Shown here piece after piece: positions 9,481-51,293 of a stretch of DNA of 64,000 bases (positions are counted from its first letter, which is position 1; each line of letters begins with the position of its first letter). The DNA comes from Tenericutes bacterium MZ-XQ. GTDB taxonomy: Bacteria > Bacillota_I > Bacilli_A > Acholeplasmatales > Acholeplasmataceae. The stretch spans positions 874,858 through 938,857 of the forward strand of contig CP017950.1 in assembly GCA_002838205.1 (NCBI GenBank). The letters are read 5' to 3'. A program made the position numbers and the translations under genes. The notes under the pieces were generated by a model. The model was not told the origin of the DNA and made no database searches. It saw only the letters and a program-made list of their open reading frames with translations.

Positions 9481-9496
9481 GAAAGAAGGTGTTCTT

Positions 9497-25462: not shown

Positions 25463-27565
25463 CTAATTTTCTTCTTTACCTAAAATCGTATTTAGTTCTC
25501 TCATATTAACTAATACTTCTCTTGCCTTAGTGCCTTGAGATGGAGATACAATATGATAATACTCAAGCATTTCTACAAGTTTTTGAGCACGATTAAAGCC
25601 GATTTCAAATTGCTTTTGAATACTATTAATTGATGCATTATCGGTTTCAACGACAAAGTATGCAACATCTTCAAATAACTCATCAGATGCAATTTCTTTT
25701 AACTCTGCTTGTTGTTTTAAAGCTTCATGTTCAAAGATATAGTTTTGATCATAACGTTCTCTAATAAAGTCAGTTACTGCATATATTTCATCATCTGGAA
25801 TATAGGCGCCTTGTAAACGGTGTGGACGATCTGATTTCTTAAATAGCATATCGCCTTTACCGAGTAGAGTTTCGGCTCCTGCTCCATCTAAAATCGTTGT
25901 TGAATCAACAAATGATGCAACTTTAAATGCAATTCTAACTGGAATATTTGATTTAATGGTACCTTTAACAACATCAGTCGTTGGTCTTTGTGTCGCAACT
26001 AATAAATGAATACCAGCAGCTCTAGCTTTTTGTGTAATTCTTTGGATGGCGTCTTCAACCTCATGCGCTGCAACCATCATTAAATCAGCCAACTCATCAA
26101 TGACGATAACGATGTAAGGCATTTTTGGATCATCAATAAGTCCACGTTTCACATTATCGTTAAATGATCTGATATCTCTTGCTCTACTTTGTGAGAACTT
26201 TTGATATCTTCTTTCCATTTCATCAACAGCCCAGTTTAATGCTTGTGCTGCCATTTTAGCATCTGTAATTACTGGTGTTACTAAATGAGGAAGATCATTG
26301 TATGGTGTTAATTCAACCATTTTAGGGTCAATTAAAATAAGTTTTAAATCTTCTGGCGAGTTTTTAATGAGCAAACTTACTAATATTGTATTTACACAAA
26401 CACTTTTACCACTATTCGTTGCTCCTGCAATTAGACCATGAGGCATTGCTTGAATATCTGCATAGATATTTTCACCATCAATATCAACACCTAGAGCAAC
26501 TTTAAGCGGGTGTTCTTTATCATTATAAAACCTTGGATCATCAACAACATTACCAAACGCAACGATTTCCGTTTTTTTATTAGGCACTTCTAAACCTACA
26601 AATGGTTTTCCTGGAATAGGAGCTTCAATACGAATGGATTTAGATGCTAAACTCATCATTAAGTTATCGCTAATGGATAAAATACGTTTAACGTTAACTC
26701 CAGGCTCTAACGCGATTTCATAACGCGTAACCGTAGGACCTTTTTTACTTGACTTCACTTCTCCTTCAATACCAAATTGTTGGAGCGTTGCGTTAATCAC
26801 ATCAATTTGATCAAGCAACCATTGAGGTTGCTCGTTTGTATCTCTATCCTTTTTAGAAAATAAAGATATACTTGGATGTTGATAAGTCTCTTTTTTATCA
26901 AGAGAAGGAGTTTTGATGGTTTCAGAAACTTTTGGACTATTTTTATCGTCTAAAAATCCAAAATCAGAAGCAACCACTGGTTTTGCTGGTTCTGGTTTTT
27001 CTCTTTGATAGGTTTCAACCTTTGGTTCATGTGAACGGAAATTATCTTCTTCTGGTTTTGCATGAAAAACTTGTCTTTGCGGTTCTGGTTTAACCTCTGG
27101 TTTTGTTCTAAATGGAAAATCATCAACTTTTGATTTTTGTTTTTCAGGTTTTTGGTATTTATGTCCTGCACCAATTGGAGAAATAATCTTTGGTTTTTCC
27201 TCTTGTTTTTCTTCAGGAATATTCATGTCATCATAATTTGTTGGTCCAAAAATTTCATCTCTTGTTTTGTGAGAAACAATATTCGTGAACTCATAATATT
27301 TAGTACCATACTTTTCAATAGCTTCATCATCAGACATTTTATGCTTTGTTCTAAATGCATCAAAACGTCTTGTCGTATCACCAGTATTTTTAACTGTAAA
27401 AGGTACCGTCACAACATCTTTAACTCTTCTTCCAAATATAGGTGATACAAAACGATCAGATTTGTAAACTTGTTTACCTCTAATCCCTTCAATTTTCGCG
27501 AACTGAAAAATAACAAAAGGTTCTTTTGTAATGACTTGTTCTAAAACTTCTTTTTGTTTTTTCAT
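25463..27565 (-). CDS. FtsK/SpoIIIE-family DNA translocase without membrane anchor
   Basis: This 700-residue motor has a charged, proline- and lysine-rich linker (about residues 130-240), then an FtsK motor with Walker A GATNSGKSV, LIDPKMVEL and Walker B VIVIDELADLMM, and a C-terminal gamma winged helix (GFNRAQKLVEMLEYY) that reads DNA polarity signals. No transmembrane segment is present at the N-terminus, so it resembles the soluble SftA rather than SpoIIIE. The membrane protein encoded just upstream overlaps it by 4 nt and could supply an anchor. Confidence 0.92.
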   Translation of the reverse strand: MKKQKEVLEQVITKEPFVIFQFAKIEGIRGKQVYKSDRFVSPIFGRRVKDVVTVPFTVKNTGDTTRRFDAFRTKHKMSDDEAIEKYGTKYYEFTNIVSHKTRDEIFGPTNYDDMNIPEEKQEEKPKIISPIGAGHKYQKPEKQKSKVDDFPFRTKPEVKPEPQRQVFHAKPEEDNFRSHEPKVETYQREKPEPAKPVVASDFGFLDDKNSPKVSETIKTPSLDKKETYQHPSISLFSKKDRDTNEQPQWLLDQIDVINATLQQFGIEGEVKSSKKGPTVTRYEIALEPGVNVKRILSISDNLMMSLASKSIRIEAPIPGKPFVGLEVPNKKTEIVAFGNVVDDPRFYNDKEHPLKVALGVDIDGENIYADIQAMPHGLIAGATNSGKSVCVNTILVSLLIKNSPEDLKLILIDPKMVELTPYNDLPHLVTPVITDAKMAAQALNWAVDEMERRYQKFSQSRARDIRSFNDNVKRGLIDDPKMPYIVIVIDELADLMMVAAHEVEDAIQRITQKARAAGIHLLVATQRPTTDVVKGTIKSNIPVRIAFKVASFVDSTTILDGAGAETLLGKGDMLFKKSDRPHRLQGAYIPDDEIYAVTDFIRERYDQNYIFEHEALKQQAELKEIASDELFEDVAYFVVETDNASINSIQKQFEIGFNRAQKLVEMLEYYHIVSPSQGTKAREVLVNMRELNTILGKEEN

Positions 27566-28335
27566 GCTTCTTCACCTGCTTTTTCTAGATCTTCAGTTAA
27601 TTCGTTATAGATATCTTCAACACCTGTATCGATAGTTTTTTCTATGTTGAAAACTTTTTTACTGTAAATCTTATAAGTCTCTTCACCAGTAATTGCGATA
27701 ATTGCTAACCCAATACGCACCATGATAATGTTCATCGCGGTTTCTTTGGTTAGTTTTCGAACCCAATAGACTGGATTGACTGCATTAATCACTGCAACAG
27801 CAGTTTTTGTTACTTTAGAATACTTTTTAGCAGCTTTTACAAATTTATTTTGATCGATTTTCGTCTTTGTCTCGTTGAGTTCATAGATTCTTGCTAATGT
27901 CCATCCTCTTGTTAATCTTAAAATCTTGCCTTGAAGCAGTGCTTCTATGCGATCTGTGATGTAGTGTGCTAAGTTTAAGCTTTCATCAACAGTAAGTTCT
28001 AAATAAGGATATTTAGATTTGGGATAAAATTTCTTTGCAATATCAACAGTAAGCTCAGCAGCAATGTTTTGAAGATGTCTTGAATAACCGACTTCATTTC
28101 TTATATCTTTATCCTTGAATTGCGATTGAGCATCTTCGATTAACCACTTAATTTCTTCTTCATCAATATCGGTTTCATCAGCATGTCTTAATTTTAGACC
28201 TTTATTCAAACTTTTTAAGACTGCATATAGATAAATGAGGAGTAATAGGAAAAATCCAAAACTCACTCCAATTAAAAAACTGATTAACATTGAAAAATCT
28301 ATGGTTATAGGACCAATTTCAAGAAATATGAGCAC
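27562..28335 (-). CDS. Conserved membrane protein upstream of the FtsK-type gene, function unknown
   Basis: This 257-residue protein has an N-terminal transmembrane segment (about residues 16-40), an acidic-to-basic middle part and a weaker hydrophobic stretch near residues 195-210 (MVRIGLAIIAI), then a helical acidic C-terminus. I do not recognise the family. The GTG start has AGGAG 8 nt upstream. It overlaps the translocase gene by 4 nt (ATGA), so equal production with the DNA motor is expected. Confidence 0.7.
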   Translation of the reverse strand: MLIFLEIGPITIDFSMLISFLIGVSFGFFLLLLIYLYAVLKSLNKGLKLRHADETDIDEEEIKWLIEDAQSQFKDKDIRNEVGYSRHLQNIAAELTVDIAKKFYPKSKYPYLELTVDESLNLAHYITDRIEALLQGKILRLTRGWTLARIYELNETKTKIDQNKFVKAAKKYSKVTKTAVAVINAVNPVYWVRKLTKETAMNIIMVRIGLAIIAITGEETYKIYSKKVFNIEKTIDTGVEDIYNELTEDLEKAGEEA

Positions 28336-28389: not shown

Positions 28390-28421
28390 TAGAAAAGAAA
28401 AAGTTGAACCGAAGTCCAACT
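28390..28421 (-). terminator. Terminator of the pilus operon
   Basis: On the minus strand AGTTGGAC and GTTCAACT flank a TTCG tetraloop and are followed by TTTTCTTTTC. The 5' arm overlaps the pilO-like stop codon. Confidence 0.88.
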
Positions 28422-28984
28422 CATTCATTCATATCATAATAAAATGTATAAATCACCATATCCACTTGAACATTTCCGTTGGTCAAAAAGGAAAGATCCA
28501 TGAAATCAATATGATAGATTGTTGTCATATCGATGATAGAATCCATAAATGATAATGCTTTGATATGATCATCAACGTTAAAGCTTACGTTAATTCGTGT
28601 AAACTTAATTTGCTGATCTAAAGCTTCATCAAATGGAGAGTTCACATCATTTGTGATGGTATGACTAAATGTATCTGTTAACTCAAACAATGCTAGATTT
28701 TTCGCTATAAGTATTTCATTATCAATAGATTGTTTATCATAACTAGAGGGTAAAAACGGCATAAGTTCGCCAATTTCCAAATAAGTGACATCCTCTTGAT
28801 TATTGATGAGTTGACTGATTTCTAAATTAAGTTCAACTTCTCTTTGTTCTAGCTCTTCTAGTTTTTGATTTTGATAAACACTCATCAAATAATATCCTGC
28901 AATCACAGCAACAAATATTAAAATCATCAAAGGAAGTGCTTTAGTCTTAGAAAGTTTTTTTCCAAAAACATTATATCTACGCAT
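28421..28984 (-). CDS. PilO-like inner pilus platform protein
   Basis: This 187-residue protein has one N-terminal transmembrane helix (about residues 16-35), a coiled coil (QKLEELEQREVELNLEISQL) and a C-terminal alpha/beta ferredoxin-like region, the layout of PilO. It overlaps the PilM-PilN gene by 8 nt and is last in the pilus operon. Sequence identity to known PilO is not evident by eye; the call rests on layout and position. Confidence 0.68.
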   Translation of the reverse strand: MRRYNVFGKKLSKTKALPLMILIFVAVIAGYYLMSVYQNQKLEELEQREVELNLEISQLINNQEDVTYLEIGELMPFLPSSYDKQSIDNEILIAKNLALFELTDTFSHTITNDVNSPFDEALDQQIKFTRINVSFNVDDHIKALSFMDSIIDMTTIYHIDFMDLSFLTNGNVQVDMVIYTFYYDMNE

Positions 28985-30428
28985 AAGTTATAGTCACCTC
29001 CATCAATAGTTCTGATAAAAATGAGGTTTCAGGTTCTGATGTTATCCACCTATTAGGACCATCATCAAAAGTTGATATACCATAAGCTTCATATATTCTA
29101 ATCACATACTCATTCAAATCTAAAACAGTATTTCCAGAAACAAGAAGAGTGATGGTTTTGCTTTTAGCATCCACTTCAACATGATCTAAGGATACATTCA
29201 CATCAAGTTCGGCAATTAAATCAATCAAATGTGCACGAAAGCTCATTTCTTTTTCTAATAGTGACTCATATGCTTCGTTATATTGAACTTGTTCATCAGT
29301 GTAGGTTGTTTGATTGGTTTGATCTCTTTTTAATATGTCTAATTGATTTTCTAAACTCTGAATTGTATTTTCTTGTTCTTGTGCTTCTTCATTAAATAAA
29401 TAAAAAGGGATGTATAATAAAGCGATACTTGAAAAAATTAAAAATGCTAATACCATGAGATAATTACCATATAAATTGACTGGTTTAATGCGCTCTAACT
29501 CAAAATCAAATGGAATTTGAACTTTGAGTCTACTTGATTTAATTGCTAAAAATGGCAAATAACATCCTGTCGGCAATTGATCTTGATAACCTTCAATTTT
29601 TGTGAAATCGAAATGATCGACTTTAAAATCTTTTAAGTTAGGAATAAGTTCACTTTCGATTGCTCGTTTTGATAAATGTTCCGATAAATTATAGATGATA
29701 ATTTCGTCTATATTTGCATTACCTTTATTTAGGTTGTACTTATAGTAGTTTGCAATTCTTTCGATATAGTTTTCTAAAACTGAAACTGTATTTGCTTTAG
29801 ATTCATCACATTCTTCAATCATTTGAAAGATTGGAATACTATTTTCGTATATCTGAATGGCTAATAAACTTTTGTAAATCGTTACAATCATCACTTGATT
29901 TGATTTTGATTTATAGTTATCTTTATAGATTTCAAATAGTGATAAAGATGGTAAATCAAAGTTAACTTCTTTAGCACCAAGTTTTTCAAATATATCATAA
30001 TAGTCGTGGAGTAAATCTTCATCGGTGATCATCGCTAAAGCTTTGACATGTTTTTCATCTTCTTCTTGTAAAAAATGAGAAATTGCAGCTTTTTCAAACG
30101 GAAAATACACTTTCTTGTCTGTTTGTTCGTGCAAGTAATTTTCTATGGATTTTTTTTGCAACTCATCTTTTGAGATATTAAGATTCCTAATCAGTAAGTT
30201 TTGATCATGGATTAAGATAAATACATTACGTAACTTAATCGCTTGCTTTTTTATACTTTCTAACAAGAGATGATAAAATATATCAGGTTCCTTAATATAT
30301 CCATTGATGACAACACCTTCAGGCAGTATAATCTCTTCACTAAGAGATTTACTCAGTTGACTTTGATGTGTCATATATGCGCATTTATAGTCTGATATAA
30401 AAACTGTAATATCTTCTTTTTTTCTCAT
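28977..30428 (-). CDS. PilM-PilN fusion-like pilus protein
   Basis: This 483-residue protein joins two normally separate parts. Residues 1-310 resemble the actin-like PilM cytoplasmic ATPase. A transmembrane helix follows (about residues 318-338, LMVLAFLIFSSIALLYIPF), then a coiled coil and an extracytoplasmic PilN-like domain. Position supports this: it lies between the prepilin peptidase and the PilO-like gene. In a cell without outer membrane it would anchor the assembly platform. The actin-like motifs are degenerate, so ATP binding is uncertain. Confidence 0.7.
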   Translation of the reverse strand: MRKKEDITVFISDYKCAYMTHQSQLSKSLSEEIILPEGVVINGYIKEPDIFYHLLLESIKKQAIKLRNVFILIHDQNLLIRNLNISKDELQKKSIENYLHEQTDKKVYFPFEKAAISHFLQEEDEKHVKALAMITDEDLLHDYYDIFEKLGAKEVNFDLPSLSLFEIYKDNYKSKSNQVMIVTIYKSLLAIQIYENSIPIFQMIEECDESKANTVSVLENYIERIANYYKYNLNKGNANIDEIIIYNLSEHLSKRAIESELIPNLKDFKVDHFDFTKIEGYQDQLPTGCYLPFLAIKSSRLKVQIPFDFELERIKPVNLYGNYLMVLAFLIFSSIALLYIPFYLFNEEAQEQENTIQSLENQLDILKRDQTNQTTYTDEQVQYNEAYESLLEKEMSFRAHLIDLIAELDVNVSLDHVEVDAKSKTITLLVSGNTVLDLNEYVIRIYEAYGISTFDDGPNRWITSEPETSFLSELLMEVTITYA

Positions 30429-30434
30429 GAAAAC

Positions 30435-31193
30435 TCACATCCCTAATAAATTTAAATACCACGTAATAACTGATTCACCAACTAAATAACTGATATAAAC
30501 AGCAATCGATATAAAAGGTATAAGTGGCAAATATTTATTTCTATCTTTTATAGAAATTATACCATATATTAAGCCGAATAGTGACGCCATAAAGATAGAT
30601 AATATCCCTTGTGGGAAGGTTAATGCCAATCCTATAAACAAGTAAATTTTAATATCTCCACCGCCAAGAGCATCCTTTTTAGCAATAGATTTACCTATGA
30701 TTGCGATAAAAAACATGATAGAAAACAAAATCACACTTGATAGAAGATACTCAAGGATATTATTTTGGATAACTCTAATGATGAGTAATGGAACAAATCC
30801 AATCATCCAGACTTTATCAATAACAATCATATCATCAATATCTGAAAAGGATTCGATAAGGAGTACTGATATAAGGATTACAGCAATTAAATAATCTAGT
30901 GTAAATCCAAAAATAAGGTATGGAATGACGAAAAGAAAACCACCAATCATTTCATAGATGATATACTTGACATTTATTTTTTCACTGCAATATCTGCATC
31001 TACCCTTATTGATTAAATAGCCAATAACAGGTAATACATCTATCAGTTTAAGGGTGTGATTGCATTGATCACAATGTGATCTTCCTTTTAAGGATTCTTT
31101 TTTATTATGCCTTGTAGCAAGCACTTGAAAAAAAGATGTAAATAGAGTTCCAAAAAGGAATATAAAGATGGCATATAGTATTGTCATAATCAT
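30435..31193 (-). CDS. pilD: Prepilin peptidase
   Basis: This 252-residue polytopic membrane enzyme cleaves and N-methylates prepilins. The cytoplasmic zinc-binding pairs are CDQC and CRYC (about residues 41-69). The two catalytic aspartates lie in FSDIDDMIV and GGGDIK. A start at 31187 is nearly as good (AGGAG at 9 nt rather than 3-4 nt). A -10 (TATAAT) lies just after the pilin terminator, so the gene starts its own transcript. ComC is the equivalent name in competence systems. Confidence 0.93.
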   Translation of the reverse strand: MIMTILYAIFIFLFGTLFTSFFQVLATRHNKKESLKGRSHCDQCNHTLKLIDVLPVIGYLINKGRCRYCSEKINVKYIIYEMIGGFLFVIPYLIFGFTLDYLIAVILISVLLIESFSDIDDMIVIDKVWMIGFVPLLIIRVIQNNILEYLLSSVILFSIMFFIAIIGKSIAKKDALGGGDIKIYLFIGLALTFPQGILSIFMASLFGLIYGIISIKDRNKYLPLIPFISIAVYISYLVGESVITWYLNLLGM

Positions 31194-31221
31194 GTTCTCC
31201 TATATTCTTATTATACTATAT

Positions 31222-31257
31222 AAAGAAAAAGGAGGCATCTTGAAAAGAGACCTCCTA
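31222..31257 (-). terminator. Terminator after the major pilin
   Basis: On the minus strand AGGAGG and CCTCCT (with adjoining TCT/AGA pairs) are followed by TTTTTCTTT. Confidence 0.75.
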
Positions 31258-31273
31258 GTTATCAAAGAATGGT

Positions 31274-31681
31274 TTATTCAGCAGGATTTCCTTCGTGGCC
31301 ATTAATGTATAAATCAATTGCATTTGTAGCTCCTGCATCACTATAAAATGTCACCGTTGAACCATTAACTACAATCCAAATCGCATCTTTAGTTAAAACA
31401 GTAAGTGTTTCACCATCCATGTATCCAAACTCATTTGATTTTAAGTCAACAAAATCTTCTGATTCTAAAGCAGCTAGTGTGAATGCTGTCGTATCTTCTG
31501 CATATAGTTCAGCAGCTGTAACAATTGTATCATAAGTTGCTTCAGCAGCATTTGCTTCTTGTCTTTCAATTAATCCACCAATAGTTGGAACAGCAATAGC
31601 AGCTATAATCCCTAATATCACAACAACCGCTAACAATTCAACTAACGTAACCCCTTTTTTATTTCTTAATGCTTTATTCAT
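31274..31681 (-). CDS. Type IV prepilin (major pilin-like)
   Basis: This 135-residue prepilin has a class III signal: a short basic leader ending in KKG, cleavage before VTLVELLAVVVILG, and the required Glu at +5 of the mature protein. The mature protein of about 125 residues has one hydrophobic helix and a small globular head without paired cysteines. It has a strong private promoter and its own terminator, which suggests that it is the most abundant pilus subunit. ComGC-like pseudopilin is the alternative name. Confidence 0.93.
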   Translation of the reverse strand: MNKALRNKKGVTLVELLAVVVILGIIAAIAVPTIGGLIERQEANAAEATYDTIVTAAELYAEDTTAFTLAALESEDFVDLKSNEFGYMDGETLTVLTKDAIWIVVNGSTVTFYSDAGATNAIDLYINGHEGNPAE

Positions 31682-31721
31682 ACTTTCTCCTCCGTATTTT
31701 ATTCTATAAAATTATACTATA

Positions 31722-31750
31722 ATGTTATGCTTTTTCATTTCATTTGTCAA
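31722..31750 (-). promoter_or_regulatory. Promoter of the major pilin gene
   Basis: On the minus strand TTGACA (31750-31745), 17 nt, TAACAT (31727-31722). A second -10, TATAAT, is at 31716-31711. Confidence 0.75.
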
Positions 31751-31783
31751 TCAATTTTGAAAGATTTAAGAAAAATGTAATAA

Positions 31784-33004
31784 CTAAATTTGGGTTCCTA
31801 AAGACAACATCGGCAACATGATTGCTAAAATCATGACTCCAACAATGGCATAAACAATGATTAACAAAATCGGTTGAATACTGTTTTTTAACTGTTGAAC
31901 TCTAAGCTCACTAATCCCATTATAATACTCACTTAAGTTTTCCATAAGTCTTGGGATATCACCAGTCTTCTCACCAGTCGCTATCATTTTTGCCATAATT
32001 GGATCGATGTGTCTACTTTCTTCAAAAGATTTACTAAAGGGCTTCCCATCTTGTAAATACAATATGGTCTTATCAATTAAAGCTTTATACACATCATGAT
32101 TTAAAATATCTTTCGTTGTTTTTAACGCTTCTAAAGAGTTAATCCCATTGGACAACATTTGTGATAATGAGTTAGCAATCAAAATTTGATTACTCATTTG
32201 AATCAATCTTCCAAAAATCGGCATTTTTAACAAAGTTAGTTTCACATAATAATGAAAGTTCGTGTTATACCGATAAAAACCTGTAAATACTAAGCCAATA
32301 AGCAATATACTTCCAAAAATGATTAGTGAATAATTTTGGAAAAAATCTCCTGTATTAAGAAAAAACTGAGTAATAGGTGGAAGTTCAACATCCCCGAAAG
32401 ATTCAAATAGTCCTGTGATGTTTGGGAAAACAAATAATAACATCCCTATGGATATAGCAATGGCTGCCCCTAAATAGATCAAAGGCATTCTAACAGCTGA
32501 TTTGATCTCTGTTGTTAGTTTAATTTGCGACTCATAATAATCAGCCATTTTTAAAATGGTTTGTCCTAACTCACCAGATAACTCACCAACTTTAATCATT
32601 TGGACAAGCAAATTCGGAAACTCCTGATTTCTCTTGCTCATAGCTTTAGAAAGTAAATTTCCATTATAAACTTGTTGATAAAGTTCAAAATATAATCTTC
32701 TAATATTTCTGTTTTCTTGCTGCAAGCTTAAGAGTTCTAGTGCGGGTAATAACTTTACACCTGAATTAATGAGTGAACCCAATTGCTTTAGGAAAAAGAC
32801 TAATTGCTTTTGGTTAATTAACTTACCAATCGTAAATTGTTCTAGTCTAGTGATGATATTTTTATATTCAATAACACTCTTTACTTTGTAATTTTTTGTT
32901 TGTAAATACTTAATACAAACACTCTTATTAACGGCTTCCATGCGCCCTTTAACAGTCTTTCCTTCAGTGTTTATACAAACATATTTAAAGTTTTTTAAAT
33001 GCAA
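31784..33004 (-). CDS. pilC: Pilus assembly platform protein PilC
   Basis: This 406-residue polytopic protein has two T2SSF domains, each with cytoplasmic helices ending in transmembrane segments, the family layout of PilC/ComGB/GspF. The start is TTG at 33004, with AGGAGG 6 nt upstream; the frame is open from 33028. Its N-terminus overlaps the 3' region of pilB closely. It would couple the ATPase to pilin polymerisation. Confidence 0.92.
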   Translation of the reverse strand: MHLKNFKYVCINTEGKTVKGRMEAVNKSVCIKYLQTKNYKVKSVIEYKNIITRLEQFTIGKLINQKQLVFFLKQLGSLINSGVKLLPALELLSLQQENRNIRRLYFELYQQVYNGNLLSKAMSKRNQEFPNLLVQMIKVGELSGELGQTILKMADYYESQIKLTTEIKSAVRMPLIYLGAAIAISIGMLLFVFPNITGLFESFGDVELPPITQFFLNTGDFFQNYSLIIFGSILLIGLVFTGFYRYNTNFHYYVKLTLLKMPIFGRLIQMSNQILIANSLSQMLSNGINSLEALKTTKDILNHDVYKALIDKTILYLQDGKPFSKSFEESRHIDPIMAKMIATGEKTGDIPRLMENLSEYYNGISELRVQQLKNSIQPILLIIVYAIVGVMILAIMLPMLSLGTQI

Positions 33005-33014
33005 AATATCCCTC

Positions 33015-34670
33015 CTATTCCTCCGCAACTTTCATAACTTCTTCTAGTGTTGTGACACCTTCTTGAATCTTTTTCAAGCCTGAAGACAATATACTTTGCA
33101 TTCCAGAATATTTAGCTTCTTTTTCTAACTCATCAAACGTTGCATTTTCAGCAATCAGTTTTCTCATTTGGTCAGATATAGGTAAAACTTCAAAAATTCC
33201 AACACGACCAGCATAACCTTTATAATTACATGAAGGACATCCTTTAGCACGTTTCACATGATCTAAATCAATACCTTGCTTTTTAAACATAACAACTTCT
33301 GTTGGTGTTGGTTCATCATCATAACTACATTCTGTACACAGTTTTCTTACAAGACGTTGTGAAATTACACCAGTCAATGACGATGCGATTAAAAATAGTT
33401 CGATTTCCATATCTAATAATCTAGTCACTGTTTTTACTGCATCATTTGTATGTATGGTTGATAAAACTAAGTGACCTGTTAAAGATGCTCTAATTGCAAT
33501 TTCTGCAGTTTCTACGTCTCTAATCTCACCGACCATAATGATATTTGGATCTTGTCTTAAAATAGATCTTAAAGCACTTGCGAATGTTAAGTTCACATCT
33601 GGTTCAACTTGTACTTGATTAACGCCTTCCATTTTAAGTTCAACAGGATTTTCAACTGTAACAATATTTACATTAGGTTTATTCAACTCTTCTAGACATG
33701 CGTATAAAGTCGTTGTTTTACCAGATCCTGTGGGTCCACTCACTAGTACAATACCATTAGGTTTGGCAATCATATCTCTTACGAGTTTTTCTTCTTTTTT
33801 CGATAAACCGATACTATCTAATCGATTAGCTCCACCACTGATATCTAAAATACGCATCACAACTTTTTCTCCTCTTACTGTTGGTAAAGTTGAAATACGC
33901 AAATCGATATTTTTTTGTTGAATCGCAGTTTGAATACGTCCATCTTGAGGTATTCTTGTTTCAGTAATATCCATGCCCGACATGACTTTTATACGACTCA
34001 CCATTTGATTCAGAATCTTAATCGGAAATTCTTTAACTATATCTAAAACACCATCTACACGATATCTAACAACAACTTTATCATCTAGTGGATCAATATG
34101 GATATCGCTTGCTCTTTGAAAAACAGCTGATGTCAATATTTGATTGACTAGATTAACCATTGGTGTATCACTATAATCATCTTCTTCTTCAGTGACTTCA
34201 TCCATGGATACATTTTGTTTGACACCAAGTGCTTCAAGCGTTCTCGTAAACCCATAATATTTTTCAATTTGAGTATTAATCTCATTTTTAGGTGCAGAAT
34301 ACATTTTTGGTCGATACCCGGTCATAAGTCTTAATTCTTCTGTCACTGAAAAATCAAGAGGATCAGATGTCGCAAACATCAATTTATTACCTTCTATTCT
34401 TAAAGGAATCATTGTATTTCTGCGACAAAAAGACTCATCAACCAACTTTAATACATTTTCATCAATCGTGAAATGCATGAGCGATACTCTTTGAACGCCA
34501 GTTGAATCTTCTAATGCTTTTAAGATTTGCATCTCTGATGCATATTGTAAACGCACGATAGTTTCACCAAGGCGTTCATTTTTTTCTTGTTTTTTTAGCG
34601 CATCTTCAAGCTGTTTTTTTGTAATAATCTTAGCATCTAGTAAAACATCACCGATTCTTTTTAATGCCAT
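33015..34670 (-). CDS. pilB: Pilus assembly ATPase PilB
   Basis: This 551-residue GspE/PilB ATPase drives pilus extension. It has an N-terminal MshEN-like domain, Walker A GPTGSGKTTT, Asp box and Walker B region (GEIRDVETAEIA), and a zinc-binding tetracysteine region CTEC...CPSC. Length and motif set indicate an extension ATPase. No retraction ATPase (PilT) is in the window. It lies one base after the VanW-like gene, in the same operon. Confidence 0.95.
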   Translation of the reverse strand: MALKRIGDVLLDAKIITKKQLEDALKKQEKNERLGETIVRLQYASEMQILKALEDSTGVQRVSLMHFTIDENVLKLVDESFCRRNTMIPLRIEGNKLMFATSDPLDFSVTEELRLMTGYRPKMYSAPKNEINTQIEKYYGFTRTLEALGVKQNVSMDEVTEEEDDYSDTPMVNLVNQILTSAVFQRASDIHIDPLDDKVVVRYRVDGVLDIVKEFPIKILNQMVSRIKVMSGMDITETRIPQDGRIQTAIQQKNIDLRISTLPTVRGEKVVMRILDISGGANRLDSIGLSKKEEKLVRDMIAKPNGIVLVSGPTGSGKTTTLYACLEELNKPNVNIVTVENPVELKMEGVNQVQVEPDVNLTFASALRSILRQDPNIIMVGEIRDVETAEIAIRASLTGHLVLSTIHTNDAVKTVTRLLDMEIELFLIASSLTGVISQRLVRKLCTECSYDDEPTPTEVVMFKKQGIDLDHVKRAKGCPSCNYKGYAGRVGIFEVLPISDQMRKLIAENATFDELEKEAKYSGMQSILSSGLKKIQEGVTTLEEVMKVAEE

Positions 34671-34671
34671 A

Positions 34672-35868
34672 TCATGCGCCTCCTATTTCAACAATGTTTA
34701 GTTCATAGATATTAGGTAATGAAGGTAAATATATATCATATAGTTTTTGAATAATGCTATGACCTTGTGCATCTGTCACAGTTCGATAAACTGTATAAAC
34801 ACCACCCTCAACACCAGTTTCAATCAGTAGTTCATATCTTGTTTCAGTGTCAGTTGTAATTTCTACTACATCTGGAGTTGAAGCATTTAGTGTATCATTA
34901 TCAATATATATGTTTTCAATAGGCACTGTTGCTTGTTTAGTTATATTTACTTCATAATCATATACTTGTGGAACACCTTTTAAGCTAAAACCAATGGCGT
35001 TAGCTGATGATTGGCCTAACTCAATACGGTACTCGAAATGATTTGAGTTATAAAATGTAAAATCATACGCATTCACTTTTAAAACACGAACATTATAACC
35101 TGTAGTCGCCCAAGCAGGCATTTCTGGATATGTGTGAAATACGAACCCATTCATATGTGTGTTTGTTAACACTTTTAACATACCTGACGCAATAATACTT
35201 AGTTCTTCATTTGTTAAATCGTAATCTTTAAGCTCTTCTAACAATGAAAATCTAGATTGGGGTTTAATGATGATGGCATTTAATTGGTTTAATATTTTCG
35301 TTACAGCATCAACATCAACTCCACTTATGGTGTCGAAGTATAACGATTGATCAAATGCTGATTCAACAAAATAATCTTCTAAAGGATAGTCTTTAATTAA
35401 AACCATATCTCCTAAATCAGCAATCAAATCATTGAACAGTTTTTCCGAATCTATCAAGCTTAAGATATTTTGAGTAAACATAGAATCGATGAGATTCAAT
35501 ATTTCTCCCTGGTGGCTTGTTTCTATAATAAAAACAACTTTATTTTGTGAGTCTTGTATAATTCCATTTACTGTTTCATCAATATTTGGTGAAAATAAAG
35601 ATGATTCTAAATTCACATGAACGCCTTGATACTCGATATCAAAGTTCAAATCATCTAGATAATCGTTAATTTCACTATTCAATACTTGTTTATACTGGGA
35701 TTCATCAATACCACCTAAAAAAACAGACCCAACGGTAGTCTCATTTTCTTGATTTGATAAATCATATACTAAGAAAATAGTGATCGCAAATACAATTGAT
35801 AAAAATACAGTAATGATTGAAATCATGAAATAGATGTTTCTCTTAAAATAGTTTACAAAATTTTTCAA
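34672..35868 (-). CDS. Membrane-anchored exported protein with VanW/YoaR-like domain
   Basis: This roughly 398-residue protein has one N-terminal transmembrane helix and an otherwise extracytoplasmic body. VGSVFLGGIDESQYKQVLN resembles the repeat that precedes VanW in YoaR-type proteins, and NQLNAIIIKPQSRFSLLEEL resembles the start of a VanW domain; both matches are weak. A C-terminal beta-rich part follows. It is first in the pilus operon, next to pilB. TTG at 35868 (GAGGTGG upstream) is favoured over GTG at 35877. Its role is unknown. Confidence 0.6.
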   Translation of the reverse strand: MKNFVNYFKRNIYFMISIITVFLSIVFAITIFLVYDLSNQENETTVGSVFLGGIDESQYKQVLNSEINDYLDDLNFDIEYQGVHVNLESSLFSPNIDETVNGIIQDSQNKVVFIIETSHQGEILNLIDSMFTQNILSLIDSEKLFNDLIADLGDMVLIKDYPLEDYFVESAFDQSLYFDTISGVDVDAVTKILNQLNAIIIKPQSRFSLLEELKDYDLTNEELSIIASGMLKVLTNTHMNGFVFHTYPEMPAWATTGYNVRVLKVNAYDFTFYNSNHFEYRIELGQSSANAIGFSLKGVPQVYDYEVNITKQATVPIENIYIDNDTLNASTPDVVEITTDTETRYELLIETGVEGGVYTVYRTVTDAQGHSIIQKLYDIYLPSLPNIYELNIVEIGGA

Positions 35869-35891
35869 TAGTACCACCTCTACTTGCTATT

Positions 35892-35900
35892 ATTATACCA
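35892..35900 (-). promoter_or_regulatory. Extended -10 promoter of the pilus operon
   Basis: TGGTATAAT on the minus strand lies 23 nt before the VanW-like start. The partner -35 is poor. Confidence 0.6.
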
Positions 35901-35973
35901 AACAATGAAGTCAAATAGACGTAAATCTATGAAAAACAAGTACTTCTTAATATATTTACTGCGAAATATATTA

Positions 35974-35979
35974 TATAAT
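35974..35979 (+). promoter_or_regulatory. -10 box of the minor-pilin operon
   Basis: TATAAT lies 27 nt before the minor-pilin start, in the divergent gap. A clear -35 is lacking. Confidence 0.5.
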
Positions 35980-36006
35980 AAGTGTAAAGAAAGGTGGTGG
36001 TTTTTC

Positions 36007-36450
36007 ATGATTGCTAATAAAAATGGTTTTACAGTATTAGAAGCTGTTGCTTCTGTGTTTATTGTGACCTTGGTTTTAATCACTTCATTAAGCATTATGT
36101 TGACCATGAGAAATCACGCCATAAGAACTGAAGAAAAGATAAAAGCTACAGATCTTGGAACTGTGATTAGATATGATCTTGAACATGATTATGCATATCA
36201 AACTATTCTCAATTGGATGAATAACGACGAAAAAATCGTGTCCAACTTAAACTGTGATGTTTCTCCACTTGACTGTTCATTATTCAATCATATTATCGAA
36301 GAAAAGGATTATGCACCACTGATCACAATTCGATTTTTAGAGCCTACAGAAGACTCCATATATTTTCAGATGATTCATTTTGAAATAACAATTAACTATT
36401 ACAAAGAACAAACTGTTACGATGATTGGAGTTATTTATGAGAAAGCATAG
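36007..36450 (+). CDS. Minor prepilin 1
   Basis: This 147-residue protein has a type IV prepilin leader (cleavage after NKNG, mature start FTVLEAVAS with Glu at +5) and a single hydrophobic helix. The ATG at 36007 has AAGGTGG upstream; the frame is open upstream but without a ribosome site. It overlaps the next minor pilin gene by 14 nt. Minor pilins of this type start or tip the pilus. Confidence 0.88.
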   Translation: MIANKNGFTVLEAVASVFIVTLVLITSLSIMLTMRNHAIRTEEKIKATDLGTVIRYDLEHDYAYQTILNWMNNDEKIVSNLNCDVSPLDCSLFNHIIEEKDYAPLITIRFLEPTEDSIYFQMIHFEITINYYKEQTVTMIGVIYEKA

Positions 36451-36943
36451 TGGTGTGACCCTAGTTGAGCTTTTAGGTGCTATCGTTATCTTCTCAATTG
36501 CTTCTTCTATCATTGCTTTAACGATTACATTTATCGTCAATGCTAACAAGGAAATTATAGAAAATGGTCAGGCAAATACAACTGGTACATTACTCATTAG
36601 ACACATTGAGCAAGAAGTAAGTGAGTTATATATAACTGGTTATACTTATACTCCAGATCAAGAACTTGTTTTATATTCAAACTTTGAATATGTTTATAAC
36701 GATTTAACTGCTGAAATAGAACTCATTAATCACGATCCTAGATTAGAACTGACTATTGTTATTGAAAATAATAATATCTCTATAAATAATCAGATTCAAG
36801 ATCTGTCTGGATTTCTCATACATGAGACAAGTCGTATTGATATGATTGAAAAAGTATCCTCTACACAGTTCATCATCACAATTGTTTTAGCATCTGAAAA
36901 AAATCTTTACACATTTAAAACCACTTTAGAAGTGTTCATTTAA
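36437..36943 (+). CDS. Minor prepilin 2
   Basis: This 168-residue protein has a class III signal (cleavage after RKHSG, mature start VTLVELLGA with Glu at +5) and a hydrophobic helix. GGAG lies 8 nt upstream of ATG 36437. It overlaps the preceding minor pilin, so the two are translationally coupled. The globular part has no cysteines. PilW/GspJ-like roles are possible, but the family is not resolved. Confidence 0.88.
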   Translation: MRKHSGVTLVELLGAIVIFSIASSIIALTITFIVNANKEIIENGQANTTGTLLIRHIEQEVSELYITGYTYTPDQELVLYSNFEYVYNDLTAEIELINHDPRLELTIVIENNNISINNQIQDLSGFLIHETSRIDMIEKVSSTQFIITIVLASEKNLYTFKTTLEVFI

Positions 36944-36957
36944 AGGAGCTGATGACC

Positions 36958-38097
36958 ATGAATATCTTAAAAAATAAAAAAGGTATGGGATTACCTATGG
37001 TTTTAGGTATAACTGTTTTTGTCATTGGCTTATCAGCAACTCTCATGAGTTATATTGTTTTTCAATCTAGAATAGTTGAATATGATATCGAAGAATCAGA
37101 AACTTATCATAATGCTGTGTCAGATGTCAGTACTGCACTCAATTATTTATCTCAAAATCCTGAGATGACAGATGCAGAAATTCTGTCACTGTCAAACTAT
37201 CTAAATGTAGTCATAGAGCAAAATGAAAATGGTTTATACATCATTACTTCACTGATCAACGAGACAAATGAAGTTGTAAGTTATATGACAGGCTCAACTC
37301 AGATAACCGATATTGATGATATTATCTTTGATTTTGATGGAACAGAAGAAACATTTGAACTATCACCAGTTATTACTTCTGAAACTCTACTATCTGATTA
37401 TATGCCTGATTATGTCATTGATTCATTAAATATATCGAATGCTCCTGAAGATTTAAACACTTATGATGACGTCATGAATTATATGGAAGATCTTGCAAAT
37501 GATGGCATCATTGATGAAATGTCGAGTTCGGAAATTGAAAAAATGAAAACCGCTGTTGTTACAGATAACACTTACATTGATGGCGACGTTGATCTAAAAA
37601 GAGATCGTGATTTGATTGTATCAGACGGAAGCATACTATTTATTGATGGAGACTTAAATTTACAACGAGACACTTTAGTTTATGGCAATATCATTGTCAA
37701 TGGGGACGTTGAAATTGAACGAAACGATATTCAAATTGTAGCCACTCTCTACATACAAGGTGACTTAGTTATAAGTAATAATTTAGAACTTGGTACTATC
37801 GATCGACCTACATTTATTTTTGTCACTGGAAATGTTGAGATTAAAAACAATGTTTCTGGCTATGCTTATATTGTTGCGGAAAACATTGAGATGGGAAACA
37901 ATATCAATATCATTGGTGGTATCTACACACATCAATCATTTGATTATGGAGAAAATGTCTATATCGAAGAGAATCTATCTTTAGATGTTTCCAAATTATA
38001 TGATTATGCAGTACCTACTCAAATCACAACCGAAACAGACAATCCTGATGGAACAAGTGATTCCGAAATTGTCTTTACTTATCCAAAATTGAAATAA
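36958..38097 (+). CDS. Large minor-pilin-like protein with beta-solenoid repeats
   Basis: This 379-residue protein starts with a prepilin-like leader (KNKKG, then MGLPMVLGITVFVIGL), but Glu at +5 is missing, as in GspK-type tip pseudopilins. A helical region (to about 200) is followed by six repeats of the pattern [IV]xG[DN][VL]x[LI] with a period near 20 residues (about 205-315), which looks like a bactofilin- or polymer-forming-type beta-helix. It is third in the minor-pilin operon. A surface adhesin or pilus-tip role is inferred. AAGGAG sits 9 nt before the ATG at 36958. Confidence 0.7.
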   Translation: MNILKNKKGMGLPMVLGITVFVIGLSATLMSYIVFQSRIVEYDIEESETYHNAVSDVSTALNYLSQNPEMTDAEILSLSNYLNVVIEQNENGLYIITSLINETNEVVSYMTGSTQITDIDDIIFDFDGTEETFELSPVITSETLLSDYMPDYVIDSLNISNAPEDLNTYDDVMNYMEDLANDGIIDEMSSSEIEKMKTAVVTDNTYIDGDVDLKRDRDLIVSDGSILFIDGDLNLQRDTLVYGNIIVNGDVEIERNDIQIVATLYIQGDLVISNNLELGTIDRPTFIFVTGNVEIKNNVSGYAYIVAENIEMGNNINIIGGIYTHQSFDYGENVYIEENLSLDVSKLYDYAVPTQITTETDNPDGTSDSEIVFTYPKLK

Positions 38098-38115
38098 GGC
38101 GAAAGCCTTTTTCTT
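38096..38115 (+). terminator. Terminator of the minor-pilin operon
   Basis: AAGGC-GAAA-GCCTT followed by TTTCTTT. Confidence 0.8.
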
Positions 38116-39109: not shown

Positions 39110-39430
39110 TTAATCAATAAGTTTATGATAAATATCTAAAGGCACAAACTGCAACTTACCACAATGACTACAAACATCAACGGGAAAAGCAGCACCTTCA
39201 GTCTCCATAAAGTGAGCATAACCAGAAAAATTGACAGTAAGTTCAAATCCACAGTGCAGACATTTCATATCAACCATGATATCAAAATTAGGCATCGATA
39301 TAAATGCATTAAATGAAGCGGCAGGGCCAGCAATGAATCCCTGCTTAACAGCTGATTTATATTCAGCATACAAATTCTTTTTTTGAACAAAAGACATATG
39401 CACAGATTTAGTTTTAAATAGTTTAGGCAT
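39110..39430 (-). CDS. IS91-like accessory zinc-ribbon protein, copy A
   Basis: This 106-residue protein has two CxxC pairs, CLHC and CSHC (about 35 residues apart), suggesting a zinc ribbon. The ATG lies within the last codons of the transposase gene (8-nt overlap), so the two are co-translated. Accessory genes occur in some IS91-group elements, but I know no family for this one. Confidence 0.75.
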   Translation of the reverse strand: MPKLFKTKSVHMSFVQKKNLYAEYKSAVKQGFIAGPAASFNAFISMPNFDIMVDMKCLHCGFELTVNFSGYAHFMETEGAAFPVDVCSHCGKLQFVPLDIYHKLID

Positions 39431-40748
39431 CGCTAAATAACCTCTCTTTTCGGTGATTTGGTAGATATGAAGCATCAAGATTTAAAACCATAGTAGAACC
39501 ACACTGACATTTAAAGATGTCATAGTGATAAGTCTTAAGCAACAAAGTTCGAAAGTGAAGTTGATGTTTAAGATAAGTCAAAGATTTAGGGTTAACTAAC
39601 TTTAACTCAGAGGCAATTTTTCGTTTTGTCCGATTTGAATAAAAACCGTAATAACGAATCAGATGAAATCCTTTATCAGGGATGTGTTTAATGAGACGTG
39701 CAATAAATTTAAAGACATGATCAGTGATGATTTGAGTACCTCGTTTATGATGTTTATCTGAAATTTGATCATCTTCATGAGGATCAAAATGCCAAGTGAC
39801 TTGGTGATTGATATCATCGAAGTCATCAATTCTAGATTCAGAGATGGCTGGATGAGAAGCATATCTGGCGATGTATTTAGCAATCTTTTTGGCTGTAGAC
39901 AAGCTAGATTTTCTCTTTAATTGAGGCCCGTAAGTGTAAAAGCCTTTTTTATACTTATGAATGAGATAACTTCTTAAGCGATTAAACTCATTATAGATAG
40001 AATTTGTCGCATGGGTTTTCAAATAGGCTGAGATGTTACTTAAGAGTCTATATTGCCAAAACATACGCAGTCTCTCAAAAGGAAAGAAAGACATGTTGGA
40101 TAGATGACCATGAGCATCAATAAAGCGTTCAGCAACTAAAGCATGGATATGAGGATTGGTCTTCATATCTCTGCCATAGGTGTGAAGAAAACAAATGATG
40201 CCAAGTCTTCTATCTAATTGGTGGTCAGCCTTCGTTTTCTTAACAGCTTTATGAAGAACTTCATTTACAGTTTGAAATAAGATATCAAATAAGTCTCTAT
40301 AAAGCCAAAAGAATTTACGCATCTCTTTAGCAACTGAAAAGACAAAATGTCTATGAGGGCACTTAAGTAATTTGGATTCAATCGCAAGTGTTCGAGCTTC
40401 TCGATATCTTTGATTACAAGAAGGACAAAACCTTGAATGACAAGAAAGACCTTGGATATGAAAGTTATCACAAGTTGGGCATTCATAGAAGAAGTAGCCA
40501 TATTTGAAATCACGACAATGTATCATTTTTTCAACATTTTCGATAATTGAGGGACGTAGTTTATCTTCAAAATGAAGTTTAAATGAATCCCAATAGGTAG
40601 CAAATATAGATTGAATGGAAATGGAGTTATCTCTATATACTTTTAAATTAGATAGTTTAACAAGCTCATTGTTAAAGACATGTTCACCATGTTTAAGAGC
40701 AAGTTCTAATTGATCTTTAAATTTATACTTAATCACTATAGGTTCCAT
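39423..40748 (-). CDS. IS91-family HUH transposase, copy A
   Basis: This 441-residue protein has an N-terminal zinc-binding region (CPTCDNF...CHSRFCPSC, about 70-95), an HUH motif in NPHIHALV, and a two-tyrosine motif KYIARY, as in Y2 rolling-circle transposases. The ATG at 40748 lies about 6-7 nt after a TATAAT, so the mRNA may be leaderless. A terminator hairpin lies upstream. A longer open frame reading through the end of the element has no ribosome site. Confidence 0.92.
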   Translation of the reverse strand: MEPIVIKYKFKDQLELALKHGEHVFNNELVKLSNLKVYRDNSISIQSIFATYWDSFKLHFEDKLRPSIIENVEKMIHCRDFKYGYFFYECPTCDNFHIQGLSCHSRFCPSCNQRYREARTLAIESKLLKCPHRHFVFSVAKEMRKFFWLYRDLFDILFQTVNEVLHKAVKKTKADHQLDRRLGIICFLHTYGRDMKTNPHIHALVAERFIDAHGHLSNMSFFPFERLRMFWQYRLLSNISAYLKTHATNSIYNEFNRLRSYLIHKYKKGFYTYGPQLKRKSSLSTAKKIAKYIARYASHPAISESRIDDFDDINHQVTWHFDPHEDDQISDKHHKRGTQIITDHVFKFIARLIKHIPDKGFHLIRYYGFYSNRTKRKIASELKLVNPKSLTYLKHQLHFRTLLLKTYHYDIFKCQCGSTMVLNLDASYLPNHRKERLFSDA

Positions 40749-40827
40749 AAATCTATTATACAATGTGACTTTAAAAAGAAAAAGGCGATTTTTATCGCCC
40801 CTAGTGAATTTATTCACTTTTGTTCTG

Positions 40828-40925
40828 CAAAAAAAAGGAACAAAGTCCCAAGGGGGAGTCGAGACTTTGTTCAATCATTTGTGGTCAAAATGATAAAAAA
40901 AGTTTTAAAACCTGACCACATAGAA
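40828..40925 (-). ncRNA. Candidate small RNA beside IS91-like copy A
   Basis: On the minus strand an extended -10 (TGATACAAT, near 40941-40933) precedes two nested-arm hairpins: TGTGGTCA/TGACCACA, then GAACAAAGTC/GACTTTGTTC with a C-rich loop containing ACTCCCCCTT. The second stem is followed by CTTTTTTTT, forming a strong terminator. No open reading frame with a ribosome site fits. It lies between a membrane protein gene and the IS element. I do not recognise the RNA family. Confidence 0.6.
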
Positions 40926-46906: not shown

Positions 46907-47111
46907 AAGATGTAACCAGAAGAATCTGCTTCCACTCCTTGCACATCATGGTGCTATTTAAGCGTGCAAACCTGCTTGATTGACTTATCTGCTAACCGGT
47001 TGTTGTTACCCGTTAGATTTCACTCAACTTCTATGTCTAACGGTGGTTTCTTATTGGCGAGGCTGCAGTTGTCTTTCAAGGCTAGGACTTCTCTTATATC
47101 TATTTTCCCTT
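46907..47111 (+). ncRNA. Candidate bridge RNA of IS110 copy 2
   Basis: Same architecture as copy 1. CCACTCCTTG is at 46932-46941 and ACCGGTTG at 46995-47002. The only difference in the left end is A at 46983 instead of G, between the two guide-like segments. Confidence 0.6.
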
Positions 47112-47127
47112 GAAAGAAGGTGTTCTT

Positions 47128-48354
47128 TTGAATCATACTTTATGTGTTGGTATTGACGTTGCTAAACTGTCCAATCACGTTTATGCACTTAACTTTAATC
47201 GTGATAAACTTTTATCTGTCAATATTCCTAATACCCAAGATGGTGCGAACTTAATTGAAACGCATATTTTAAAACTTCTTGATAAACATCATCTCTCTAA
47301 AGTCATTGTCATCTTAGAGTCAACTGGTGTTTACTCCGGTCATCTTGCGACCTACTTATCAGCTTCTAAGTTTTTGAGTGTTTTCGATATCAAAGTTTAT
47401 CTCATCAATCCTAAAATTTCTAAAAATTATAGAAAAAGTTTTGCTGATATGGATAAAACTGATCCTAAAGATGCTTACATCTTAGCTGATATTGCTAGAG
47501 TTGGAAGAACCGATGAGTTAACTCCCTTTAAAGGTGGTCAAAGACTTGCTTTAGAAAGACTCACAAGGCATAGACTTCATATTGCTGAAAAACTATCCAA
47601 TGAGAAGGTTTATGCCCTTAATAACGTGTTTATAAAGTTTTCTAACTTTGAAACTATATTTTCTAATAACTTTGGATCAACTGCTGTTGATCTCTTATTA
47701 GATTATAAAACCATTGATGATATTATCGATTCATCTTTAGAAGATTTATCTGACTTTGTTGCTAAATCAAGTAAAAATCGCTTTGATAATTCACTTGATA
47801 TCGCTGCTAAGATCCAAAAAGCTGCTAGAGATTCTTATCGTCTTGATAAAGTTTCTTATGATCCTATTAATACAGCTCTCGCCTCATCCATAAATGTCAT
47901 TAAATGTTATGAACATGAAATGAAAGATATTGATAAAGCCATTTTGCGACAAGTCGCTGGGTTTAATCATGATCACTATCAAATCTTAACGTCTATACCT
48001 GGTATTGGTAAAGTTTATGCAGCCGGTATCTTAGCTGAGATTGTTGATATTAGTCAGTTTGAATCCAATGATGCACTTGCTAAATATGCAGGTATTACCT
48101 GGCGTAAAAATCAATCCGGGAAATTCACCGCTGATGAGACTTACATGACTAAAACTGGAAATAAATATTTGCGCTACTTTTTAATCCAGGCAGCCAACAT
48201 GGCTAGAATTCATATACCTGAGTATCGTGATTTTTATCATAAGAAATATGATGAAGTCACGACTCATCAACACAAACGTGCACTCGCCTTAACTGCTAGA
48301 AAACTTATTCGTCTTATCTATGGTTTGTTGAGTACCAATAGACTTTATAAGTAA
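47128..48354 (+). CDS. IS110-family DEDD transposase, copy 2
   Basis: The protein is identical to that of copy 1; the single coding difference is synonymous (CAG for CAA at 48187-48189). The start is TTG at 47128 for the same reason as in copy 1. The full length and intact motifs suggest that both copies are active. Confidence 0.92.
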   Translation: MNHTLCVGIDVAKLSNHVYALNFNRDKLLSVNIPNTQDGANLIETHILKLLDKHHLSKVIVILESTGVYSGHLATYLSASKFLSVFDIKVYLINPKISKNYRKSFADMDKTDPKDAYILADIARVGRTDELTPFKGGQRLALERLTRHRLHIAEKLSNEKVYALNNVFIKFSNFETIFSNNFGSTAVDLLLDYKTIDDIIDSSLEDLSDFVAKSSKNRFDNSLDIAAKIQKAARDSYRLDKVSYDPINTALASSINVIKCYEHEMKDIDKAILRQVAGFNHDHYQILTSIPGIGKVYAAGILAEIVDISQFESNDALAKYAGITWRKNQSGKFTADETYMTKTGNKYLRYFLIQAANMARIHIPEYRDFYHKKYDEVTTHQHKRALALTARKLIRLIYGLLSTNRLYK

Positions 48355-49538: not shown

Positions 49539-49603
49539 ATATATCACTCCTGTCAAATTATTATAACACGATTCCAAGAACAAAAGTGAATAAATTCACT
49601 AGG

Positions 49604-49630
49604 GGCGATAAAAATCGCCTTTTTCTTTTT
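49604..49630 (+). terminator. Terminator upstream of the IS91-like transposase
   Basis: GGCGAT-AAAA-ATCGCC followed by TTTTTCTTTTT, at the element end. It should block transcription entering from outside. Copy A has the same hairpin at about 40773-40799 on the minus strand. Confidence 0.8.
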
Positions 49631-49654
49631 AAAGTCACATTGTATAATAGATTT

Positions 49655-50980: not shown

Positions 50981-51293
50981 ACTATTTAAAACTAAATCTG
51001 TGCATATGTCTTTTGTTCAAAAAAAGAATTTGTATGCTGAATATAAATCAGCTGTTAAGCAGGGATTCATTGCTGGCCCTGCCGCTTCATTTAATGCATT
51101 TATATCGATGCCTAATTTTGATATCATGGTTGATATGAAATGTCTGCACTGTGGATTTGAACTTACTGTCAATTTTTCTGGTTATGCTCACTTTATGGAG
51201 ACTGAAGGTGCTGCTTTTCCCGTTGATGTTTGTAGTCATTGTGGTAAGTTGCAGTTTGTGCCTTTAGATATTTATCATAAACTTATTGATTAA
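50973..51293 (+). CDS. IS91-like accessory zinc-ribbon protein, copy B
   Basis: The 106-residue protein is identical to the copy A product. It starts inside the transposase gene (8-nt overlap) and is followed by a terminator (51314-51335, ACTCAT/ATGAGT plus T run). Its CxxC pairs suggest zinc binding. Confidence 0.75.
   Translation: MPKLFKTKSVHMSFVQKKNLYAEYKSAVKQGFIAGPAASFNAFISMPNFDIMVDMKCLHCGFELTVNFSGYAHFMETEGAAFPVDVCSHCGKLQFVPLDIYHKLID

Follow-up and report, generated by a model that had tools for sequence, protein, structure and literature searches.

A type IVa-type pilus cluster lacking pilT in Tenericutes bacterium MZ-XQ, a mollicute wall-less by its gene content

In the Bacilli, the closest described counterpart of the system considered here is the pil operon of walled Bacillaceae, which encodes a type IVa pilus (T4aP) and of which a Bacillus example was first noted in strain NRRL B-14911 (Imam et al., 2011; PMC3244431); in Gram-positive pil operons, the retraction ATPase PilT is usual but not obligatory (PMC3244431). 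In the same work, the Mollicutes and Spirochaetales were the sole groups identified without pilus genes and were used as the negative set (PMC3244431), and the Mollicutes go unmentioned in the later work of Denise et al. (2019; PMC6668835). Pili are likewise unmentioned in the open-access papers searched here on environmental Tenericutes and wall loss. The present report concerns a stretch of 64,000 nucleotides (nt), hereafter the window, from Tenericutes bacterium MZ-XQ (family Acholeplasmataceae), i.e., positions 874858-938857 of a single contig of 2,157,199 bases (genome 99.98% complete), and within it a type IV pilus (T4P) gene cluster at 28421-38097. While the kind of machine, namely T4aP, is already known, what is new is the wall-less host, the absence of pilT, the fusion of PilM with PilN and an eroded VanW partner.

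The cluster consists of ten genes arranged in two divergent operons, i.e., a minus-strand operon with, in order of transcription, the gene of a VanW/G5-derived protein of 401 amino acids (aa), pilB, pilC, pilA, pilD, pilM-pilN and pilO, and a plus-strand operon encoding the minor pilins I, J and K (Table 1). As traits of T4aP, it encodes a PilB with its N-terminal domain and motifs, PilC, PilD and pilins with class III signal peptides. The assembly ATPase PilB matches T2SSE (455 bits, E=1.6e-136) and MshEN (71 bits, E=1e-19) and carries the Walker A, His box and tetracysteine motifs; its best NCBIfam model is TIGR02538 (PilB), with 605 bits, under the equivalog cut-off of 676, versus 558 bits for the GspE model. 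PilC shows two T2SSF repeats (E=4e-49), with GspF as best NCBIfam scorer, and PilD combines A24_N_bact (88 bits) and Peptidase_A24 (51 bits) with two CxxC motifs (CDQC and CRYC) and a GxGD motif (GGGD). The major pilin PilA passes the N_methyl cut-off (30 bits, E=2.6e-7) and has the cleavage motif KKG^VTLVE. The fused PilM-PilN is composed of an actin-fold PilM domain, a transmembrane segment at about residues 319-340, a PilN-like coil and a ferredoxin-like end; its PilM_2 and TIGR01175 matches are sub-threshold, and profile comparison with the solved PilM 3jc8 gives E=1.9e-8. For its AlphaFold model (predicted local distance difference test, pLDDT, 80), the top Foldseek matches are PilM (5eoy/5eou), then FtsA and GspL (E 1.7e-16 for PilM versus 7e-10 for GspL), with a TM-score of 0.68 by target length against 5eou, a PilM with PilN peptide bound. 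The PilM/PilN/PilO alignment complex can as such be recognised, PilM by profile and fold, PilN as part of the fusion, and PilO by position and conserved context only, its gene closing the operon in every relative mapped to that point. Loss of the ATP site in PilM was considered as a wall-less novelty and rejected, for the same loops look degenerate in the PilM of walled Bacillus.

All pilin-type N-termini above noise in a genome search with PF07963 fall inside the cluster. Minor pilin I scores 12.8 bits with N_methyl in the protein scan, below the cut-off, and 14.2 bits in the genome search, with a weak resemblance to GspI/ComGE. Minor pilin K is without Glu5, a residue also missing in tip pilins of the GspK/PilK kind. 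Its AlphaFold model displays a beta-rich region at residues 188-339 (pLDDT about 79-92 as far as residue 320), i.e., a beta-solenoid-like head at moderate model confidence, with a weak DUF7305/bactofilin resemblance and no significant match in a fold search of the PDB. No PilQ or other secretin is encoded in the cluster, the check being confined to it with no genome-wide secretin search.

As far as genes can show, the host is wall-less, because no PF00905 transpeptidase is found in its genome, FolC (whose gene adjoins a valS-like gene) is its sole Mur_ligase_M match, and its described neighbours are mollicutes. The same PF00905 search, negative also in 36 sampled genomes of the family, does detect transpeptidases in other genomes of the order. 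On these grounds a walled host was rejected, and the wall-less, Acholeplasma-type cell presumed in a preliminary description of the sequence is borne out by gene content. The closest named genome is that of Tenericutes bacterium MO-XQ (PilB 96% identical), a Mollicutes isolate from subseafloor sediment, to which MZ-XQ, from a coalbed 2 km deep, is a sister strain (PMC6381156). Of the described neighbours, Mariniplasma and Peloplasma, both free-living anaerobic mollicutes, the latter shows cells without a wall under the microscope (PMC11122141).

PilT, a usual trait of T4aP, is absent: the genome encodes only one protein of the PilB/PilT family (PF00437), so that the lack of PilT first remarked within the window holds for the genome as a whole. 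In walled relatives, pilT stands beside pilB in 71/71 loci. Among 160 genomes of the order, no pilus-bearing genome has two full-length PF00437 proteins. In an even sample of the class (394 members, each at least 90% complete), a strong PF00437 match was present in 185 and a transpeptidase in 180; by a cross-tally made by hand from the two lists, 38 genomes have a T4P ATPase without transpeptidase, 36 of them without recognised PilT. By family, the 38 belong to f16 (17), f1 (9), f24 (6) and f3 (2), with one each in f9, f11, f19 and f23. A further PF00437 match, weak and partial, occurs in G377. The PilT model was passed only in G190 and G354, both of f16 (390 and 378 bits, cut-off 319), where the gene (L197:9440-10462 and L198:1305-2321) lies on another contig than pilB and transpeptidase is missing; these may possibly be wall-less cells with a retraction motor, and as counter-examples they led to the rejection of a strict rule of no PilT in wall-less cells. 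In the wall-less clade, pilT thus moved out of the operon, mainly in a single evolutionary event, and was then lost in most members, and it can be hypothesised that this loss is linked to that of the wall.

Regarding its origin, the cluster shares with the T4aP operon of walled Bacillaceae (Neobacillus, Anoxybacillus, Rossellomorea) a PilB about 50% identical and the gene order, namely VanW/G5, pilB, pilT, pilC, pilA, pilD, pilM, pilN and pilO, which wall-less loci match apart from pilT, their pilB and pilC being spaced by 0-85 nt. It differs in that pilT is gone, PilM and PilN are fused, the VanW/G5 domains are eroded, the minor pilins form a divergent operon upstream, and there is no wall. 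In a tree of 64 PilBs, the one of the window and 36 others form one clade (100/100) adjoining the walled Bacillaceae pil systems, with members from the wall-less families f1, f2, f16 and f24 plus two metagenome bins from outside this grouping; an earlier tree of 122 rows agrees. Together, PilB tree and shared gene order show that the cluster and the pil operon of Bacilli descend from a common ancestor, and the interleaving of f24 PilBs with those of f1 makes it likely that genes were to some extent transferred between these families. The 401-aa protein aligns with the VanW-G5 protein encoded upstream of pilB in walled Bacilli (hhalign 99.8%, E=2.4e-30, 334 columns), of which it is a descendant. 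Among three walled homologues tested, G5 exceeds the Pfam cut-off in all and VanW in two, whereas neither cut-off is reached in the seven wall-less homologues tested from f16 and f24 nor in the protein of the window, with which a sequence search of the PDB led nowhere. In L006, L137 and L195, PilM and PilN are encoded as two proteins, and the remaining f1 and f24 members read through have the fusion; because the two frames overlap by a few bases in L006, the fusion could have arisen by a small frame change. Of the comparison set, several genomes are metagenome bins, among which G342 and G379 have 6-8% contamination. The machine is not a one-off, a related cluster being common to several wall-less families. 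As a side observation, PilD of f2 (L136:9571-10437 and L137:6959-7837) has kept the CxxC N-terminal domain and lost the GxGD catalytic motif, so that processing in this family would call for an altered enzyme or a different peptidase.

The cluster lies between ftsK and a HAD gene, in the same order throughout the genus; the sister genus has the same cluster and flanks, although two of its genomes show local rearrangements of the minor pilins. For the window compared with MO-XQ, the ratio of nonsynonymous to synonymous substitution rates (dN/dS, Nei-Gojobori; dS near or above 1, hence rough values) is 0.03 for PilB and 0.04 for PilC, the latter value being also that of FtsK; the remaining machine genes lie at 0.09-0.15, and PilA reaches 0.34. 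The ranking is similar for the pair G003/G004, with minor pilins J and K and the VanW-like protein somewhat higher (at most 0.28); over the comparisons, the ranges are 0.11-0.14 for PilO, 0.04-0.07 for PilC and 0.31-0.34 for PilA. The raised dN/dS of PilA is what one would predict for a filament subunit that is exposed and variable, and its dS, the lowest of all, may reflect high expression. These values are those of a cluster that strong purifying selection maintains in both its own genus and the neighbouring one, and together with synteny they led to the rejection of a degenerate relic. Intact, selected pil operons in several wall-less families overturn the view of the Mollicutes as pilus-negative.

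The cluster probably encodes a surface pilus machine of the T4aP type derived from walled Bacilli, with a c-di-GMP-gated PilB (c-di-GMP, cyclic dimeric guanosine monophosphate), which would mainly build an attachment fibre. With NF053729, a model of the MshE-related c-di-GMP motif, PilB scores 52.7 bits, over the cut-off of 38, and the first c-di-GMP motif of its MshEN domain is exact (RIGDVLLDAKIITKKQLEDALKKQ). With 17 GGDEF (PF00990) and 5 EAL (PF00563) matches, the genome holds a rich c-di-GMP network for a wall-less mollicute, the GG[DE]E[FL] signature being present in 4/4 GGDEF proteins read and EAL motifs in the three EAL loci read; an MshEN-bearing PilB alongside GGDEF/EAL enzymes is the usual wiring of surface attachment. 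As for the mechanism, the pil operon of walled Bacilli would have been inherited and kept after wall loss. PilD would cleave the prepilins, and PilB, gated by c-di-GMP via MshEN, would drive PilC to polymerise PilA on a priming or tip complex made up of the three minor pilins, with PilM-PilN, PilO and the VanW-derived protein forming a membrane-side alignment complex. With neither peptidoglycan nor outer membrane expected, the filament would exit the naked membrane directly, and because there is no PilT, powered retraction would be absent or a weak by-product of PilB; most likely, the fibre would serve the attachment of cells leading a sessile life bound to particles, and not twitching. This raises the mechanical question of how a machine thought to brace on peptidoglycan is anchored, extended and perhaps retracted on a bare membrane, a question testable at the bench as cultured MO-XQ and MZ-XQ (JCM 31639) exist.

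Several points weigh against an attachment fibre so conceived: the c-di-GMP motif is only partly conserved in the PilB clade (19/38 rows under a strict pattern); PilO is without Pfam match; the filament itself is a prediction from genes; two related wall-less genomes keep PilT, so that lack of retraction is no general rule; and Peloplasma, the closest described genus, consists of single non-motile cocci for which pili are unmentioned (PMC11122141). Moreover, the presence of ComEA and ComEC also fits a DNA-capture pilus, which would bind extracellular DNA and, by PilT-independent retraction, bring it to ComEA/ComEC for nutrition and not transformation, a reading that we hold unlikely and nonetheless the most serious competitor. 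Its genes comEA (HHH, 64 bits) and full-length comEC (Competence and Lactamase_B), found on searching the complete genome together with the absence of dprA, lie adjacent some 30 kb from the window (L140:7227-9783, i.e., G000:C1 842227-844783), with the metallo-beta-lactamase motif intact. PilT-less competence pili do take up DNA in Streptococcus (PMC6668835), and ComEC is matched in 11/11 pilus-bearing versus 15/26 pilus-less Acholeplasmataceae sampled (Fisher p=0.009, kinship uncorrected; a hand tally in which one ComEC match lies below the cut-off and two PilBs are fragmentary). ComEC is however common in pilus-less wall-less relatives and has as such no need of a pilus machine, so that it was rejected as a dedicated pilus partner; a 2018 paper had reported it lost in the Acholeplasmataceae (PMC6299819), where it is here found to be common. 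With the ComG competence pilus of Bacilli, the system has in common a monoderm host, the lack of PilT and the co-occurrence of ComEA and ComEC, but its PilB bears MshEN and is not ComGA-like (267 bits for a ComGA cut-off of 300; ComGC 25 for 75), a PilM/N/O complex is present, DprA is missing, and a wall-less cell offers no wall for DNA to cross. It is because of the c-di-GMP wiring, the missing DprA and the commonness of ComEC without pili that attachment is favoured and DNA capture ranked second.

A pseudopilus of the type II secretion system (T2SS) kind, acting as a piston that frees proteins, secreted or lipid-anchored, from the surface of the membrane, is very improbable. The lack of a retraction ATPase, the GspL-like layout of the PilM-PilN fusion, the GspI/J/K-like minor pilins with a tip pilin devoid of Glu5, and the GspF score of PilC recall the T2SS (GspE-M), but the ATPase is of PilB and not GspE type, the fold is nearer to PilM than to GspL, the PilBs cluster with Bacilli pil systems, and neither periplasm nor double membrane is expected for a piston to work in. 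T2SS identity was rejected on the model scores, the PilM fold ranking and the PilB tree, so that, of the type IV pilus or pseudopilus initially proposed, the former is by far the nearer. Slightly more improbable still is a motor for twitching or gliding, driven either by PilB on its own or by a retraction ATPase that escaped recognition: bifunctional PilB-type motors exist in Tad systems (PMC6668835) and the two relatives named above keep a PilT above the family cut-off, but no second ATPase of the family is encoded in the genome, and the neighbour Peloplasma is non-motile (PMC11122141). Going beyond the attachment fibre, it may be speculated, doubtfully, that T4P would be ancestral in free-living wall-less Bacilli and was re-engineered at peptidoglycan loss, with (i) the high-force PilT displaced and mostly lost as a naked membrane could not bear its pull, (ii) PilM and PilN fused to hard-wire the alignment complex, and (iii) the wall-facing VanW/G5 partner turned into a wall-free anchor.

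Table 1. Genes and putative regulatory elements of the pilus cluster (positions within the window)
Feature	Position	Strand	Basis
Intrinsic-terminator-like hairpin, end of long operon	28401-28422	-	9-pair stem, 4-nt loop, T-rich tail directly after pilO stop
pilO-like gene, 187 aa, one N-terminal transmembrane segment	28421-28984	-	Position, conserved context
Fused pilM-pilN, 483 aa	28977-30428	-	Profile and fold match to PilM
pilD, prepilin peptidase	30435-31193	-	A24_N_bact, Peptidase_A24
pilA, major pilin, 135 aa	31274-31681	-	N_methyl
Conserved promoter-like element of pilA, TTGACA-17-TAACAT	31722-31750	-	No variation in TTGAC among five species of the genus
pilC, platform protein, 414 aa	31784-33028	-	T2SSF, two repeats
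pilB, assembly ATPase, 551 aa, N-terminal MshEN c-di-GMP-type domain	33015-34670	-	T2SSE, MshEN
Single-pass membrane protein derived from VanW/G5, 401 aa, first in operon	34672-35877	-	Profile-profile match to walled Bacilli homologue
Divergent promoter region between the operons	35878-36006		Conserved TATATAATA (plus) and TATAAT-like (minus) in five species
Minor pilin I, KNG^FTVLE	36007-36450	+	Sub-cut-off N_methyl, conserved in relatives
Minor pilin J, HSG^VTLVE	36437-36943	+	N_methyl cut-off exceeded (27.5 bits)
Large tip-type minor pilin K, KKG^MGLPM, beta-solenoid-like head	36952-38097	+	Conserved in 15 loci
Terminator-like hairpin, end of minor-pilin operon	38096-38109	+	5-pair stem, T tail

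The genes named in the preliminary description are all present and uninterrupted where it had placed them, except that the start of minor pilin I is moved from 35884 to 36007, an ATG after a ribosome-binding site, with minor pilin J starting at 36437; to its list is added, as a member of the operon, the 401-aa gene it had left unnamed. The private promoter of pilA likewise finds support in the TTGAC invariant across species and the -10-like hexamer 17 nt downstream, a plain promoter-consensus scan of the region being by itself at chance level (62 found versus 58 expected).

A second, unrelated T4P cluster, termed type B, was met in further wall-less members of the order and the class, at L131 and L132 (f1 g12), L133-L135 (f3 g20) and L191-L193. 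It resembles the present one in having a single ATPase, PilD, PilC and PilB, hosts without transpeptidase and likewise no PilT, and differs by a separate PilB clade (100/99), the gene order PilD-PilC-PilB, several large pilins and a short PilM-like protein. Next to the cluster, between ftsK and pilO, a 257-aa membrane protein of unknown family (27562-28335) is conserved in two genera; because it was not seen beside the pil clusters of f24 or f16, it is probably no part of the pilus machine. Lastly, two pairs of transposases with identical translations, one IS110-like and one made of a CxxC-rich IS91-like protein with a 122-aa partner, occur in the window (9479-10723 with 47110-48354, and 39110-40874 with 49586-51293), which suggests recent transposition, one copy lying just past the HAD gene that adjoins the pilus cluster.

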